From contig JAISUD010000002.1 in the NCBI GenBank assembly GCA_031272265.1, forward strand, positions 1 to 50,542: 50,542 nt of DNA, written 5' to 3'. This stretch comes from Endomicrobium sp. GTDB taxonomy: Bacteria > Elusimicrobiota > Endomicrobiia > Endomicrobiales > Endomicrobiaceae. How positions within the stretch are numbered: position 1 is the stretch's first letter; each line of letters starts with the position of its first letter. Below the pieces are notes generated by a model. It was not told the origin of the DNA, made no database searches, and worked only from the letters and a program-made list of their open reading frames with translations. Positions 3 through 5,976 of the stretch are shown in pieces. The position numbers and the translations under genes are program-made.

Positions 3-1322
3 GATTTATCAGAGCTTAAGAAAGAAACTGAGACCCAAAAAAAAGATGCTGAACATAAATTGAAAGTGTTTGAAGAAAAGGGAATTGCGGACAAATTAAA
101 ACTTCAAACAAGTTTTGAAATGGATATAAATAAGGTTCAAAGCTTTAAAGGGAACGTGGATACTTATTATATTGAAGAATTAAGTAATTTGATTGAGAAT
201 AATAAGTTTTTAATAGAGCAAGCTATTTTATCTTATGATTTTGGCATCAATAAATCGTTTTTTGAAGAAATAAACAAACAACTGGAAATATTGAAACAAG
301 AATTTAGTAATTTAAACGTAATTTTTGAACGTTCTAAAGCTATCAGTAGCAACTTAGAAGATATTTTAATACGATTGATTTCTAAGCGAGATAAATTTAA
401 AGAAGAATTTGCAAAAATAAAAAGAGAAATTAATATCACAAATCTTGACCCTGACGACTATATTAAAATAAAAAAAGAGTTAGAAATATCAAAGACTAGA
501 TTAATTGAGATTGATAAATCTGAAGCTAAAAGGAAGAAATTAGATAATCAGCTTAAGGTGAGTTTAGGAGACTTAGATAGATTATGGCATAAAGAGTTTG
601 AAATTCTTCAGGAAGAAGCTCGAAAAATAAATGATAGCAAAACTAAATTATCAGTAAAAGTAGAATATAAAGCGCGTAAGGATAAATTTCTAAGTAAGCT
701 ACAAAATGATTTTAAGGGAGAGGGAATAAGAGGAACGTTATTTGAAGATGTATCCAATAAATATGAAGATTTTATAGATATATTTAAAGATGGTTTTCAA
801 AAACTTAAAACTATAATAAAAAATGAACATCAGCAAAGTCATTTTAGAAAACATTTTGAAAGCGATTTCTACGATCTTTTGACATTTAGAGTCGCGGATG
901 AGGTAACTATTAATTTTGAAGACAGACCTTTGAGAGAGCATTCATTGGGACAGAGGGCTTCCGCGCTAATTCTGTTCCTATTAGCGCAAAAAGAAAACAA
1001 TATTTTAATAATAGACCAACCGGAAGACGATTTGGACAATCAAACTATTTATGAGGATGTTATTAAAGAAATTAAGAAAATAAAAGGAGATATGCAGTTT
1101 ATATTTGCCACGCATAATGCGAATATACCGGTTCTTGGCGACAGTGAAATGATAATTGCTTGTGAATATACGGACGGTAGGAATATTAAAGTGGAAACCG
1201 GTAGTATTGATAAGAAGTTCCCTATTCAAGAAAAAGTAATTAGGATAATGGAAGGTGGAAAAGAAGCATTTGAGAGTAGGAGAAAGATTTACAATATTTG
1301 GAATAATGAGGAAACAAAATAA
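3..1322 (+). CDS. C-terminal part of an SMC/ABC-like ATPase (TrlF/Ppl-like family), 5' end outside window
   Basis: The frame is open to the left window edge (DLSELKKETETQKKDAEHKLKVFEEK...). Coiled-coil region, then LGQRASALILFLL, Walker B NILIIDQPEDDLDN and H-loop FATHNANIPV, as in TrlF-like ATPases. Confidence 0.8.
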   Translation, partial: DLSELKKETETQKKDAEHKLKVFEEKGIADKLKLQTSFEMDINKVQSFKGNVDTYYIEELSNLIENNKFLIEQAILSYDFGINKSFFEEINKQLEILKQEFSNLNVIFERSKAISSNLEDILIRLISKRDKFKEEFAKIKREINITNLDPDDYIKIKKELEISKTRLIEIDKSEAKRKKLDNQLKVSLGDLDRLWHKEFEILQEEARKINDSKTKLSVKVEYKARKDKFLSKLQNDFKGEGIRGTLFEDVSNKYEDFIDIFKDGFQKLKTIIKNEHQQSHFRKHFESDFYDLLTFRVADEVTINFEDRPLREHSLGQRASALILFLLAQKENNILIIDQPEDDLDNQTIYEDVIKEIKKIKGDMQFIFATHNANIPVLGDSEMIIACEYTDGRNIKVETGSIDKKFPIQEKVIRIMEGGKEAFESRRKIYNIWNNEETK

Positions 1323-2516
1323 ATGGACGCACTGGAATTATTGGATATTATAAGCTCGGGCGAAACTAGTCGTGTGCAGTTCAAAGAAAAATTGGATAAT
1401 GATAAGTCCATTGCTGCTGAAATGATTGCCATGTCTAACTCTAAAGGTGGGCGTATTATCTTTGGAGTCAAAGACAAAAGAGGAGAAATATCAGGATTAG
1501 GTTTTGAAGAACTGCAAGATTATGGGAGTCGTTTGGCTACGATAGCTGACAATTTAATAAAACCAAGTATATTTATTTGTACAGAAGTTGTTTCTGTTAG
1601 CGATAAAAAAGTTTTGGTTATAGATATAGAAGAGGGAATGAACAAACCTTATAAGGACAGTCAGGGCGCAATTTGGATTAAACAAGGACCAGATAAAAGA
1701 CGGGTGACTGATAATAATGAGGTAAAAAGACTTTTTCAACAGAGTGGCAATTTATCAGCAGACGAATTGACTGTTAAAGGAACTGATATAAACGATATTG
1801 ACGAAAAATTATTTGCCGATTATTTTAGGGAGGAATTCAGGCAGACATATCAAGAGAAAGCTCTGTCTTTTGAAAGGGCGTTGCAAGTAAAAAGAATTAT
1901 GAGAGACGGGGAAATCACTTTAGCGGGACTGCTTTTTTTCAACAATAGTCCTCAGACTATAAAACCCGCTTTTACGGTTAAAGCCGTTTCTTTTATAGGC
2001 AATGATCTTTCAGGAACAGAATATAGAAGCAAACCTTCGGATTTCAAAGGGACAATTCCTGAATTGTTTAAGCAGGCGACGGATTTTTGCAGTGCTAATC
2101 TACACCATATACAGAAAGATAAAAAGGATTTTAATTCAAAAGGGAGTTTAGAAGTTTCTCATACGGCCCTTGAAGAGTTAATTGTGAACGCCTTAATTCA
2201 CAGAGATTATTTTAAAAACGCTCCAGTGAGAATTCTTATATTTGATAATCGGATTGAAATAATAAGTCCGGGTGTATTGCCTAATAGCTTAATAGTTGAC
2301 CAAATAAAATACGGCAATACCGTAATACGCAATAATCAGATTGTAACTTTTGCACAGCATTTACTCCCTTACTCCGGTTTAGGGTCAGGTATAAAAAGAG
2401 CTTTGAAGGAACAACCTGACATTGAGTTTATAAATGACTCCGACGGAGAGCAGTTTATAGTGAAAATTCCGAGACCGGAAAGAGTAGTAAAGAAAAATAA
2501 TGATTTCAACTCTTGA
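1323..2516 (+). CDS. AlbA_2 (Schlafen-type) putative DNA-binding domain plus C-terminal HATPase_c_4-like protein
   Basis: N-terminus ESxxVQFKEKL...AMSNSKGGRIIFGVKD is typical of AlbA_2. C-terminal ALEELIVNALIHRDY...IEIISPGVLP is typical of the associated ATP-binding domain. ATG directly follows the upstream stop. Confidence 0.85.
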   Translation: MDALELLDIISSGETSRVQFKEKLDNDKSIAAEMIAMSNSKGGRIIFGVKDKRGEISGLGFEELQDYGSRLATIADNLIKPSIFICTEVVSVSDKKVLVIDIEEGMNKPYKDSQGAIWIKQGPDKRRVTDNNEVKRLFQQSGNLSADELTVKGTDINDIDEKLFADYFREEFRQTYQEKALSFERALQVKRIMRDGEITLAGLLFFNNSPQTIKPAFTVKAVSFIGNDLSGTEYRSKPSDFKGTIPELFKQATDFCSANLHHIQKDKKDFNSKGSLEVSHTALEELIVNALIHRDYFKNAPVRILIFDNRIEIISPGVLPNSLIVDQIKYGNTVIRNNQIVTFAQHLLPYSGLGSGIKRALKEQPDIEFINDSDGEQFIVKIPRPERVVKKNNDFNS

Positions 2517-5274
2517 ACAAATATTATCGGATATAAATTATGAAGATTTAGGCTTGTGGAAAATATCTGAAATTACGCATTTTTGCCGAGATAAAAATCT
2601 TTGGAACTATCAAACTGAAGCGCTTAAAAATATAATAAAAGTTTTGAAATTGTATTTTGAAAACAAAAACGGTAAGAAAAATTTTTTAGATAAATACCTT
2701 AACAAAGGCGTAAAAATTGCCGGCATTAAAAAATTTTTAAATTCTAAAGACAGAAAGAAGAGCGCTGTAAATAAGAGATTTGATTTTTTTAGGAATCATT
2801 TTGAAGTTTTGGAAGGAGTGGAAGACGAGTATATTTCCGGCGAAAACTTTTTAAACAGAGCTTGTTTTTGGATGGCGACGGGATCAGGTAAAAGTCTTGT
2901 ACTTATTAAAACAATAGAAATCTTGGATCATTTGCAGAAAAAAGAACTTATTCCTAAGAAAGAGATAATGCTGTTATTGCCTAGACAAGATTTAATCAGT
3001 CAATTTAAAAGAGAAGTAAGCGATTTTAATTCCGACAGGGAAAAGAAAATAGAGCTTGTCAGTCTTAAAGATTATGAAAATGATAAGCAGAACCAGTCTC
3101 TTGATTTTGACGACACTATTAAAGTTTATTTTTACAGAAGCGATTTATTGAGGGACGAAAGAAAAGAGGCGTTTTTAGATTATAAAAATTACCAGAATGA
3201 CGGGAATTGGTATGTATTTTTGGACGAAGCGCACAGAGGCGAAAAAGAAAATTCTTTAATGCAGGATTATATCTGCGTTTTGTCTAAAAACGGTTTTTTG
3301 TTTAATTTCAGTGCGACTTTTAGTGAAGAAATTGATTTTGCCACGACGTGTTATAACTTTAATTTAATGAAATTTATAAATGAAGGTTACGGTAAGAATC
3401 TCTATTTAAGCAATTCTTATTTTTCTTTCAGCAAAGACAACGACGATTTTAGCGAAAAAGATAAGCAGAAACAAGTTTTGAAATCTTTGATAGTCTTCAC
3501 GCTGGTTAAAATGCAAAAACAGGATAATTTATACCATAATCCTCTGCTTATGACGTTTGTTAATTCTGTGAATACCAGTGACGCGGATCTATTGTTGTTT
3601 TTTAAAAAATTAGAGGAAATAGCCGTTGGCAGCGTTGAAAACGCTTTGTTTGAACAATCAAAACAAGAGCTGATTTCAGATTTTTTGAACAATAGACGAT
3701 ACTTTTTCAGCGAAGAAGAATTTCAACTTGACGCTGAACTCGTCAAAAAAATTGAAATTAAAGATGTTTTATTGCAGGTTTTTAACAGTCGCAGGCACGG
3801 CAAGATAGAATTGCTTGAAGGTGAAAAAGGCAAAGAAATTGTTTTAAAGCTTCAAACAGCGCAAAGTCCTTTTGCTTTAATAAAAATAGGTGAGGCGGAA
3901 AGATTTCGTAGACAACAGCTTGGAAATGAATATATGCAGATTATCGGCTTTGATGAAAAAAAGATTTTTGAGAATATAAATCAAGATGAAAACATAAATC
4001 TGCTGCTTGGAAGCAGAGGTTTTTATGAAGGCTGGGACAGCAACAGACCCAATGTTATAAATATGATCAACATCGGTAAAAAAGACGCTAAGAAGTTTGT
4101 TTTGCAGGCGATAGGCAGAGGTATTAGGGTAGAGCCTCGCAAAGGAGTGAGAAAAAGGCTTGATTACGGGGACGCGAATAAAAATGTTCTACTTGAAACG
4201 CTTTTTATTTTTGCGACTGATAAGAATTCTATAAAAGCAATCGTGGAAACCGTCAATGAAAATCAAAGTCGTCAAGAACGAGAAATATCTTTGTGGGAAA
4301 ATGACGAAAAGCCTTTTGATTTACTTATTCCTGTCTATAAGGAAACAGAGATTTCTCCTGTTTTTGCAAAATTTAATATAGCGTCGGGAACGCTTGAAAA
4401 GTTTAAAGAGTACTGTGGAGGACTAGATGAAAATTTAATGCTTTTAAAAAATAAAATAAGCGTTCAGAAACTAAATTCAACTTTTGAGAAGATTCAAAAC
4501 GGTTCTCTATTTCAAGTAAAAAGCGAAAATGTGTACAGCGATATGAATTTTTTGTTCCAGCAAATAATTGACCTTGCCTGTACTAGACAAAAAATTGTGG
4601 ACGGTGTAAAAAGACTAGATAATGAAATTATCCATTTTAAACATATTAAAGTTTTTAATTTGAGCGATGAAGAAACGGAACTTTTAGAGGATAAAATTAA
4701 AAAAGTTAAAAATTTCACCCCTGTAGATAAAGCTGAAGAAGAATTTAGGAAAGTATTGAAATTAAAAAAAATAGTAAATCATTATTATTTGCCCTTGATA
4801 TATTCCGAAGACGAAAAAATAAATTATGTAAGCCGTATTATTTATCACCCGAGTGAAGTTAAATTTATTAAAAACCTTGATAATTTTGTAGCGGGAGTAA
4901 GTAAAGATAAAAATGTCCAGTGGATGTTTTGCAAAATAAACGAGAATTTAGACAAAATATGCGTGCCGTATTTTTATGCTAAAGATAATTCTTATAGAAA
5001 GTTTTTCCCGGATTTTATTTTCTGGATTAAAAATAAGTCTGACTATGAAATTATTTTTATTGATCCTAAAGGAACGAGTCATACGGATTATGAGAGTAAA
5101 GTTGATGATTTTGAGAAATTATTTTTTGAAAATGACCGGCCGAAAGTTTTTATTTACAAAGGTATGAAAATAACTTTTAAACTTCAATTGATAGCTGAAG
5201 ACAAAAATGCAATAGGCGGTAAATATAAATCATATTGGCTTAACGAAGGTGATTTTAGTTTTTTAGAACGTTAG
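2500..5274 (+). CDS. Type III restriction Res-like DEAD/DEAH helicase with C-terminal PD-(D/E)xK-like nuclease motif
   Basis: Walker A WMATGSGKSL, DEAH box FLDEAHRG, motif III-like FSATF, motif VI QAIGRGIRVEP, C-terminal FFPDFIFWI...IIFIDPKGT. Overlaps the upstream gene by 17 nt. Confidence 0.85.
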   Translation: MISTLEQILSDINYEDLGLWKISEITHFCRDKNLWNYQTEALKNIIKVLKLYFENKNGKKNFLDKYLNKGVKIAGIKKFLNSKDRKKSAVNKRFDFFRNHFEVLEGVEDEYISGENFLNRACFWMATGSGKSLVLIKTIEILDHLQKKELIPKKEIMLLLPRQDLISQFKREVSDFNSDREKKIELVSLKDYENDKQNQSLDFDDTIKVYFYRSDLLRDERKEAFLDYKNYQNDGNWYVFLDEAHRGEKENSLMQDYICVLSKNGFLFNFSATFSEEIDFATTCYNFNLMKFINEGYGKNLYLSNSYFSFSKDNDDFSEKDKQKQVLKSLIVFTLVKMQKQDNLYHNPLLMTFVNSVNTSDADLLLFFKKLEEIAVGSVENALFEQSKQELISDFLNNRRYFFSEEEFQLDAELVKKIEIKDVLLQVFNSRRHGKIELLEGEKGKEIVLKLQTAQSPFALIKIGEAERFRRQQLGNEYMQIIGFDEKKIFENINQDENINLLLGSRGFYEGWDSNRPNVINMINIGKKDAKKFVLQAIGRGIRVEPRKGVRKRLDYGDANKNVLLETLFIFATDKNSIKAIVETVNENQSRQEREISLWENDEKPFDLLIPVYKETEISPVFAKFNIASGTLEKFKEYCGGLDENLMLLKNKISVQKLNSTFEKIQNGSLFQVKSENVYSDMNFLFQQIIDLACTRQKIVDGVKRLDNEIIHFKHIKVFNLSDEETELLEDKIKKVKNFTPVDKAEEEFRKVLKLKKIVNHYYLPLIYSEDEKINYVSRIIYHPSEVKFIKNLDNFVAGVSKDKNVQWMFCKINENLDKICVPYFYAKDNSYRKFFPDFIFWIKNKSDYEIIFIDPKGTSHTDYESKVDDFEKLFFENDRPKVFIYKGMKITFKLQLIAEDKNAIGGKYKSYWLNEGDFSFLER

Positions 5275-5513
5275 AGAGTGGGCTGAACAACAAGACTCTG
5301 ACCGTTAAAGATACTGTTCATATTTTTGATTTTTGTGTTGTACTAAGCTTAGAATATAAACAACATAGACATCTCTTTCTTAAGAGTCAATTAAAATTAT
5401 CAATATAAAAAAAGAATTTAAAATTGCAGTTATAAATTGTGATAAATAATAATTCTTTATACGAACTAAAAATAATAATTAAGTGTCTCTAAGTAAAAAT
5501 AATTTTATGGAGA

Positions 5514-5976
5514 TGGAGGTGGCGGGAATTGAACCCGCGTCCGAAAATGCTTCAGTAAGACCGCTACAGGTTTAGTCTGGAATATTTCCTCATTTATAAC
5601 GCCGCTTCCAAACAAGCTCGCCTTATAAACTAACGCTGTTTTAGTTTCATTTTAAACTAGCAACGTAAACAAGTTTAAAACTAACCTGCTTCTTGTCGTT
5701 TTATCCTAATAGCAGGTGTCTAAGGTAAAACGTGGCCGTCTTATGCGGCCATTGACACTTCCTGCATTCTAAAATTCTCACGCTTTGTGTTAGTCTTTCT
5801 TGTTCTTAAAGCTAAAAGGGCTAACATAACTCCTCCCAAACCCGCGAGAGAATTCGTGTTATGCATTGGAATAGAATTACTGTCATTTATTTTTTAGTCG
5901 ATTTTTACGGAGCCATCGACTAACTCCGACCTGCTGTCTTAACATCAATCGTTCTCGTCGAAACCTGTTCACCCCC
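5514..5976 (-). ncRNA. ssrA: tmRNA (transfer-messenger RNA)
   Basis: Minus strand begins GGGGGTGAACAGGTTTCGACGAGAACG and ends GGACGCGGGTTCAATTCCCGCCACCTCCA. Acceptor stem pairs; PK1 is recognisable (CGGAG...CTCCG; AGTCGA...TCGACT). CCA does not appear to be encoded. Confidence 0.95.
5741..5884 (-). other. tmRNA tag reading frame (47 codons + TAA): DSNSIPMHNTNSLAGLGGVMLALLALRTRKTNTKRENFRMQEVSMAA
   Basis: Resume codon GAC lies 11 nt after the PK1 3' strand (CGACT-AAAAAATAAAT-GAC), the same spacing as E. coli (GCCGC-AAAAAAUAGUC-GCA). The stop lies in the loop of a TGGCCG/CGGCCA hairpin (P5-like). Confidence 0.75.

Follow-up and report, generated by a model that had tools for sequence, protein, structure and literature searches.

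A TrlF-Schlafen gene pair in the probable downstream part of a type III restriction-modification operon of Endomicrobium

The genes that open the window (the whole stretch of DNA analysed, 50,542 nucleotides from Endomicrobium sp.) probably form the downstream end of an operon for type III restriction-modification, which carries a portable TrlF-Schlafen module with a proposed backup guard role. We hold the identities of the three genes and the nesting of TrlF-Schlafen in a type III operon with high confidence. Defence genes nested in restriction operons are already known; the TrlF-Schlafen pairing in the slot between mod and res appears to be undescribed.

Results

The first gene, a truncated trlF (positions 3-1322, plus strand, 439 aa, 5' end open at the contig edge), forms the embedded pair with slfn, a bacterial Schlafen gene (1323-2516, plus strand, 397 aa). 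The third gene is res (2500-5274, plus strand, 924 aa), which encodes the restriction subunit of a type III system and combines an SF2 helicase with a PD-(D/E)xK nuclease at the C-terminus. The TAA of trlF (1320-1322) abuts the ATG of slfn at 1323, and slfn and res overlap by 17 nt (2500-2516). Domain matches span the full-length genes, so all three frames are real and not chance open reading frames. A preliminary description of the sequence had placed the same three same-strand genes in one operon of a defence context and had named their families; frames, operon and context were borne out, and the families proved correctly named.

The window begins at base 1 of its contig, in an assembly of 698,591 bases that is 60% complete. 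As trlF starts at the contig edge and was cut by the assembly, only its C-terminal half is visible. The full operon order would be mod-trlF-slfn-res, with mod just off the contig. Both mod and the TrlF N-terminus were sought in the rest of this 60%-complete assembly and neither was found, as would follow if both were located upstream of base 1, in the assembly gap.

Gene 3 matches the Pfam ResIII and DEAD families (9e-19 and 6e-8, respectively). It carries the SF2 helicase motifs (motif I ATGSGK, DEAH, SAT and Q..GRG.R) together with a C-terminal PD..(D/E)xK nuclease motif (PDFIFW...IDPKG), as type III Res proteins do, and all of these motifs are kept across five aligned relatives. A Res alignment was searched against one genome per species (84,980 species), which gave 240 relatives, and the best 80 of the 240 were studied. 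The nearest named relatives are from Endomicrobium metagenome-assembled genomes (MAGs). A type III Mod, identified by the PADLOC MTase_III model PDLC03638 with E values down to 1e-276, was found upstream on the same strand in 69 of these 80 Res loci. Of the 11 loci that lack a full Mod, one (L050) retains a C-terminal Mod remnant and the other 10 have a contig edge no more than 1.6 kb from res. Hence no verifiable Mod-less Res locus was found among the best 80 of the 240 relatives, the 10 without a trace of Mod being cut by contig ends. Judged from its sequence, gene 3 supplies the Res of a type III Mod-Res pair, and Mod is presumably not seen beside it because the contig ends there. Its function we take to be that of Mod plus Res in type III restriction, as established for the family. 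Gene 3 thus shares with known type III Mod-Res systems the helicase and C-terminal nuclease of Res, and its homologues have a type III Mod directly upstream. The differences are a Mod that would lie beyond the contig end, two additional genes on the 5' side of res, and a Res that the PADLOC 2.0.0 models do not recognise.

In profile searches gene 1 matched the TrlF model NF045780 (E 8e-83) over model positions 481-944 of 944. The score of 280 bits comes from the C-terminal half alone and is to be read against an NCBIfam cut-off of 350 bits; full-length TrlF relatives score 499-598 bits on the same model. The visible part contains a coiled coil, a Walker B motif (IDQPEDDLD) and an H-loop, and both the Walker B sequence and the EGGKEAF tail are common to the full-length relatives. 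A PHP-like motif (DFHLHT) stands at the start of these relatives, which also have the Walker A sequence GIRGSGKS; in gene 1, Walker A and any PHP domain would fall off the contig. The N-terminal PHP domain anticipated in the preliminary description is therefore upheld through the full-length relatives only. On the Ppl model gene 1 scores 78 bits and the full-length relatives at most 231 bits, short of the NCBIfam Ppl cut-off of 1000 bits. By these profile scores gene 1 is assigned to the TrlF family, a sibling of the Ppl family. Full-length TrlF relatives resemble the anti-phage PHP-ATPase Ppl in having a PHP-like N-terminus and a C-terminal SMC/ABC-like ATPase, but differ from it in those scores and in having a Schlafen partner. 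The predicted structure of TrlF was unusable (mean pLDDT 45).

Gene 2 encodes an SLFN_AlbA_2 domain (Pfam, 7e-22) followed by a GHKL/HATPase_c_4 domain (2e-10), a histidine-kinase-like ATPase. Its predicted structure (mean pLDDT 72) matched 3lmm over nearly the full length and, in part, human SLFN14, the SAMD9 tRNase domain and histidine kinase catalytic domains. Because of the AlbA_2 and HATPase domains and these fold matches, we consider gene 2 to be a bacterial Schlafen; Pfam and the predicted structure agree on the AlbA_2/Schlafen fold. Alignments place the Schlafen motif GETSRVQFK at 1362-1382 (plus strand; approximately residues 13-21), where gene 2 has E-x4-Q and SLFN14 has E-x4-E (ESTHVEFK). 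The catalytic E-x4-E is thus absent, and E-x4-Q is found throughout the whole Schlafen clade of gene 2. A second deposited SLFN14 sequence reads ESTHVAFK and is presumably a catalytic mutant. The replacement of the second Glu by Gln speaks against a canonical RNase and calls nuclease activity into question. It predicts a sensor role for a domain that is usually presumed to be the killer.

In the Schlafen tree gene 2 falls within a clade (support 100/99) that contains the TrlF partners of type I operons and of stand-alone pairs, and the C-terminal wHTH is absent from this clade. Backup effectors of BREX loci include bacterial Schlafens, composed of a Schlafen domain and a minimal histidine-kinase domain (PMC12839542). 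Gene 2 has the same AlbA_2 plus HATPase architecture and likewise sits inside a defence operon; it differs from the BREX Schlafens in the clade without wHTH, in the Gln at the second Glu of E-x4-E and in its TrlF partner. A scan of viral contigs for the gene 2 Schlafen gave no match, and phage records contained distant relatives only. In another genome of the same phylum (Elusimicrobiota G015, L168:1-10700), a type I operon has an AlbA_2/HATPase gene between its hsdM-like and its hsdS-like gene.

TrlF and a Schlafen of the same clade recur elsewhere as a pair. On enterobacterial plasmids they lie inside operons of the order hsdR-trlF-slfn-hsdS-AAA-hsdM, and near-identical copies are present in 38 of 5,426 complete E. 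coli genomes. The pair is also found within an Aeromonas type I operon and, in Vibrio cidicii, in a different type I operon (hsdM-hsdS-trlF-slfn-hsdR), and Pseudomonas and Yersinia plasmids carry it by itself. Its nearest copy, from Bergeyella, shows 46% and 48% identity and is broken into several frames. The identities of the TrlF and Schlafen proteins correlate with r = 0.95 across 36 non-independent pairs. Pairing is not obligatory, TrlF being found without Schlafen and the Schlafen clade without TrlF. Recurrence both in other hosts and alone is what a nested module should display; type I operons show the pair between subunit genes of another system, and the type III family shows other cargo so placed. 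From this distribution we class TrlF-Schlafen as a two-gene defence module that is portable and that, in this genome, is probably nested in a type III operon.

A second case of the window's exact TrlF-Schlafen clade inside a type III operon was not found among the best 80 of the 240 Res loci. The locus L113 (Mod-TrlF-AlbA_2-M78-DUF4411-Res) had been considered an exact precedent and was downgraded when the tree grouped its Schlafen with the M78-linked one of L059. In a gammaproteobacterial MAG (G202, L187:1146-8551), a TrlF-AlbA_2 pair lies divergently beside the mod of a type III operon that already carries an AAA plus AlbA_2 cargo pair. The preliminary description did not recognise the exact trio as a named system; PADLOC 2.0.0 has no named system for TrlF plus Schlafen. 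A literature search that left bioRxiv preprints as such aside found no description of TrlF or of the TrlF-Schlafen pair.

In this type III family, the interval between mod and res acts as a slot for varied, mostly effector-like cargo, about half of the loci being filled. Among the 69 Mod-bearing loci, mod abuts res (gap of less than 150 nt) in 35 and cargo lies between them in 34. A filled interval holds one to five genes, mostly effector-like; the kinds seen include Schlafen, Fic, RhuM, NTase-HEPN, AAA_13, short pAgo-SIR2 and, on a plasmid, CBASS. Pfam matches among the 53 cargo proteins were to HATPase_c_4 (7), SLFN_AlbA_2 (6), Fic (5), Bro-N (5), RhuM (4), DUF4411 (4), nucleotidyltransferase (4), AAA_21 (4), AAA_13 (3), DUF6119 (3), M78 (3), HEPN (2), HepT (2), Piwi (1) and SIR2_2 (1), counts that cover the cargo proteins alone and are not an enrichment over a background of flanking genes. 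PADLOC candidate families matched by the cargo include PDC-S05, S06, S09, S13 and S23. An AAA_13 gene occupies the slot in three genomes from the window's own genus, so cargo varies even among close relatives. Inspection of mod-res intervals is thus a simple route to backup defence systems.

Several individual loci illustrate the range. On a Rhodothermus marinus plasmid (L033:7829-14964), a type III mod and res flank a two-gene CBASS (SMODS cyclase and Cap15 effector). An Aminicenantes MAG (L079:4539-12937) has Piwi and SIR2 proteins of the short prokaryotic Argonaute type in this position. Upstream of the cargo in L050 (positions 1-640) is a scar made up of a Schlafen-wHTH C-terminus, about 60 codons of the start of Res and about 30 codons of the end of Mod. 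It resembles what cargo exchange would leave behind after recombination at the conserved ends of mod and res, although an error in joining the MAG could account for it as well. In two Endomicrobium genomes (G001, L024; G017, L025), a second type III locus, adjacent to a conserved host gene, carries AAA_13 cargo.

Discussion

Nesting of accessory defence genes in restriction operons has precedents. Candidate defence genes embedded in restriction operons were reportedly described by Payne et al. in 2024. PrrC (EcoPrrI) and TgvAB (Vibrio) are accessory defence genes nested in type I restriction operons (PMC12707154, PMC11411939). The present case resembles all of these in its nesting and differs from them in that the host is a type III operon and that TrlF plus Schlafen is another pair.

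In the mechanism we propose, Mod and Res would cut incoming unmodified DNA, while the TrlF ATPase might respond, via its SMC-like head and coiled coil, to a signal of infection, either DNA ends or a restriction complex that is blocked, and act through its PHP domain. The Schlafen partner could bind RNA or DNA as a co-sensor or effector under the control of its ATPase domain. Once restriction failed, the two proteins would halt growth or bring about cell death, in the way that PrrC acts for EcoPrrI. We infer the guard role of the cargo from the company of effector domains, from the PrrC and TgvAB precedents and from Schlafens acting as BREX backup effectors. By this analogy TrlF-Schlafen may be a backup abortive-infection module that guards the restriction system, a reading we advance tentatively, at somewhat below an even chance. 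A more far-reaching version, which we think unlikely, has TrlF-Schlafen as an undescribed guard module that plugs into unrelated type I and type III systems and senses their inhibition by a common signal, the altered Schlafen serving as a nucleic-acid sensor for the PHP nuclease and not as an RNase.

The serious rival is that TrlF-Schlafen is nested but independent, a self-sufficient pair that travels in restriction operons for a shared promoter, shared transfer or a complementary range of phages, without monitoring the state of the restriction enzyme. The stand-alone copies on Pseudomonas and Yersinia plasmids and the occupation of unrelated type I and type III hosts are consistent with such independence, as is the finding that TgvAB protects without HsdR although it lies in a type I operon (PMC11411939). 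However, the pair occurs in at least three distinct restriction operons and, where seen there, is always inside the operon, which a guard role explains too; the sequence fits either reading, and we consider independence rather doubtful. That one and the same pair occurs in type I operons, beside a type III res and on its own makes it possible to test directly whether embedded modules guard the host restriction system or merely travel with it.

The preliminary description had united TrlF, Schlafen and the helicase-nuclease in a single stand-alone system, which would lack a methyltransferase. The abutting and overlapping genes fit that idea, the rest of the operon is out of sight, and no Mod was found in this incomplete genome. 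However, the trio recurs in 0 of the 80 Res loci (the best 80 of 240), and every locus without a trace of Mod is one that ends at a contig edge. In type III systems, a Res nuclease that lacked its Mod would not be expected to be under regulation. Since the trio does not recur among these 80 loci, whereas the pair and Mod-Res each do, we rejected the single three-gene system, to which we give hardly any weight. The co-occurrence expected of the genes in other genomes thus failed for the trio and held for the pair, in type I operons and in stand-alone plasmid copies, and the content of the mod-res slot varies by locus. We also regard it as very improbable that the operon is a decaying relic, on its way to being lost and no longer a functional defence, like restriction genes in other symbionts of the genus. 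Restriction genes are decaying in the genus, as the second type III locus shows: its res is split in G001 and interrupted by internal stops in G017. Truncated Schlafen relatives occur in the family. Here, however, slfn and res are full length, trlF runs open to the edge of the contig, and no helicase or nuclease motif of Res is missing.

A tmRNA gene, ssrA (5511-5976, minus strand; Rfam RF00023, 157 bits), lies outside the system, its 3' end 237 bases from the end of res. ARAGORN missed it at these positions; it is clear in Rfam. The region 5' of ssrA is syntenic across the genus, with a tadA-like gene constant, and the 3' side differs between genomes. The gene that neighbours ssrA in close relatives was found in this genome only as a 36% paralogue. 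This arrangement is suggestive, and only suggestive, of acquisition of the operon by integration at ssrA.
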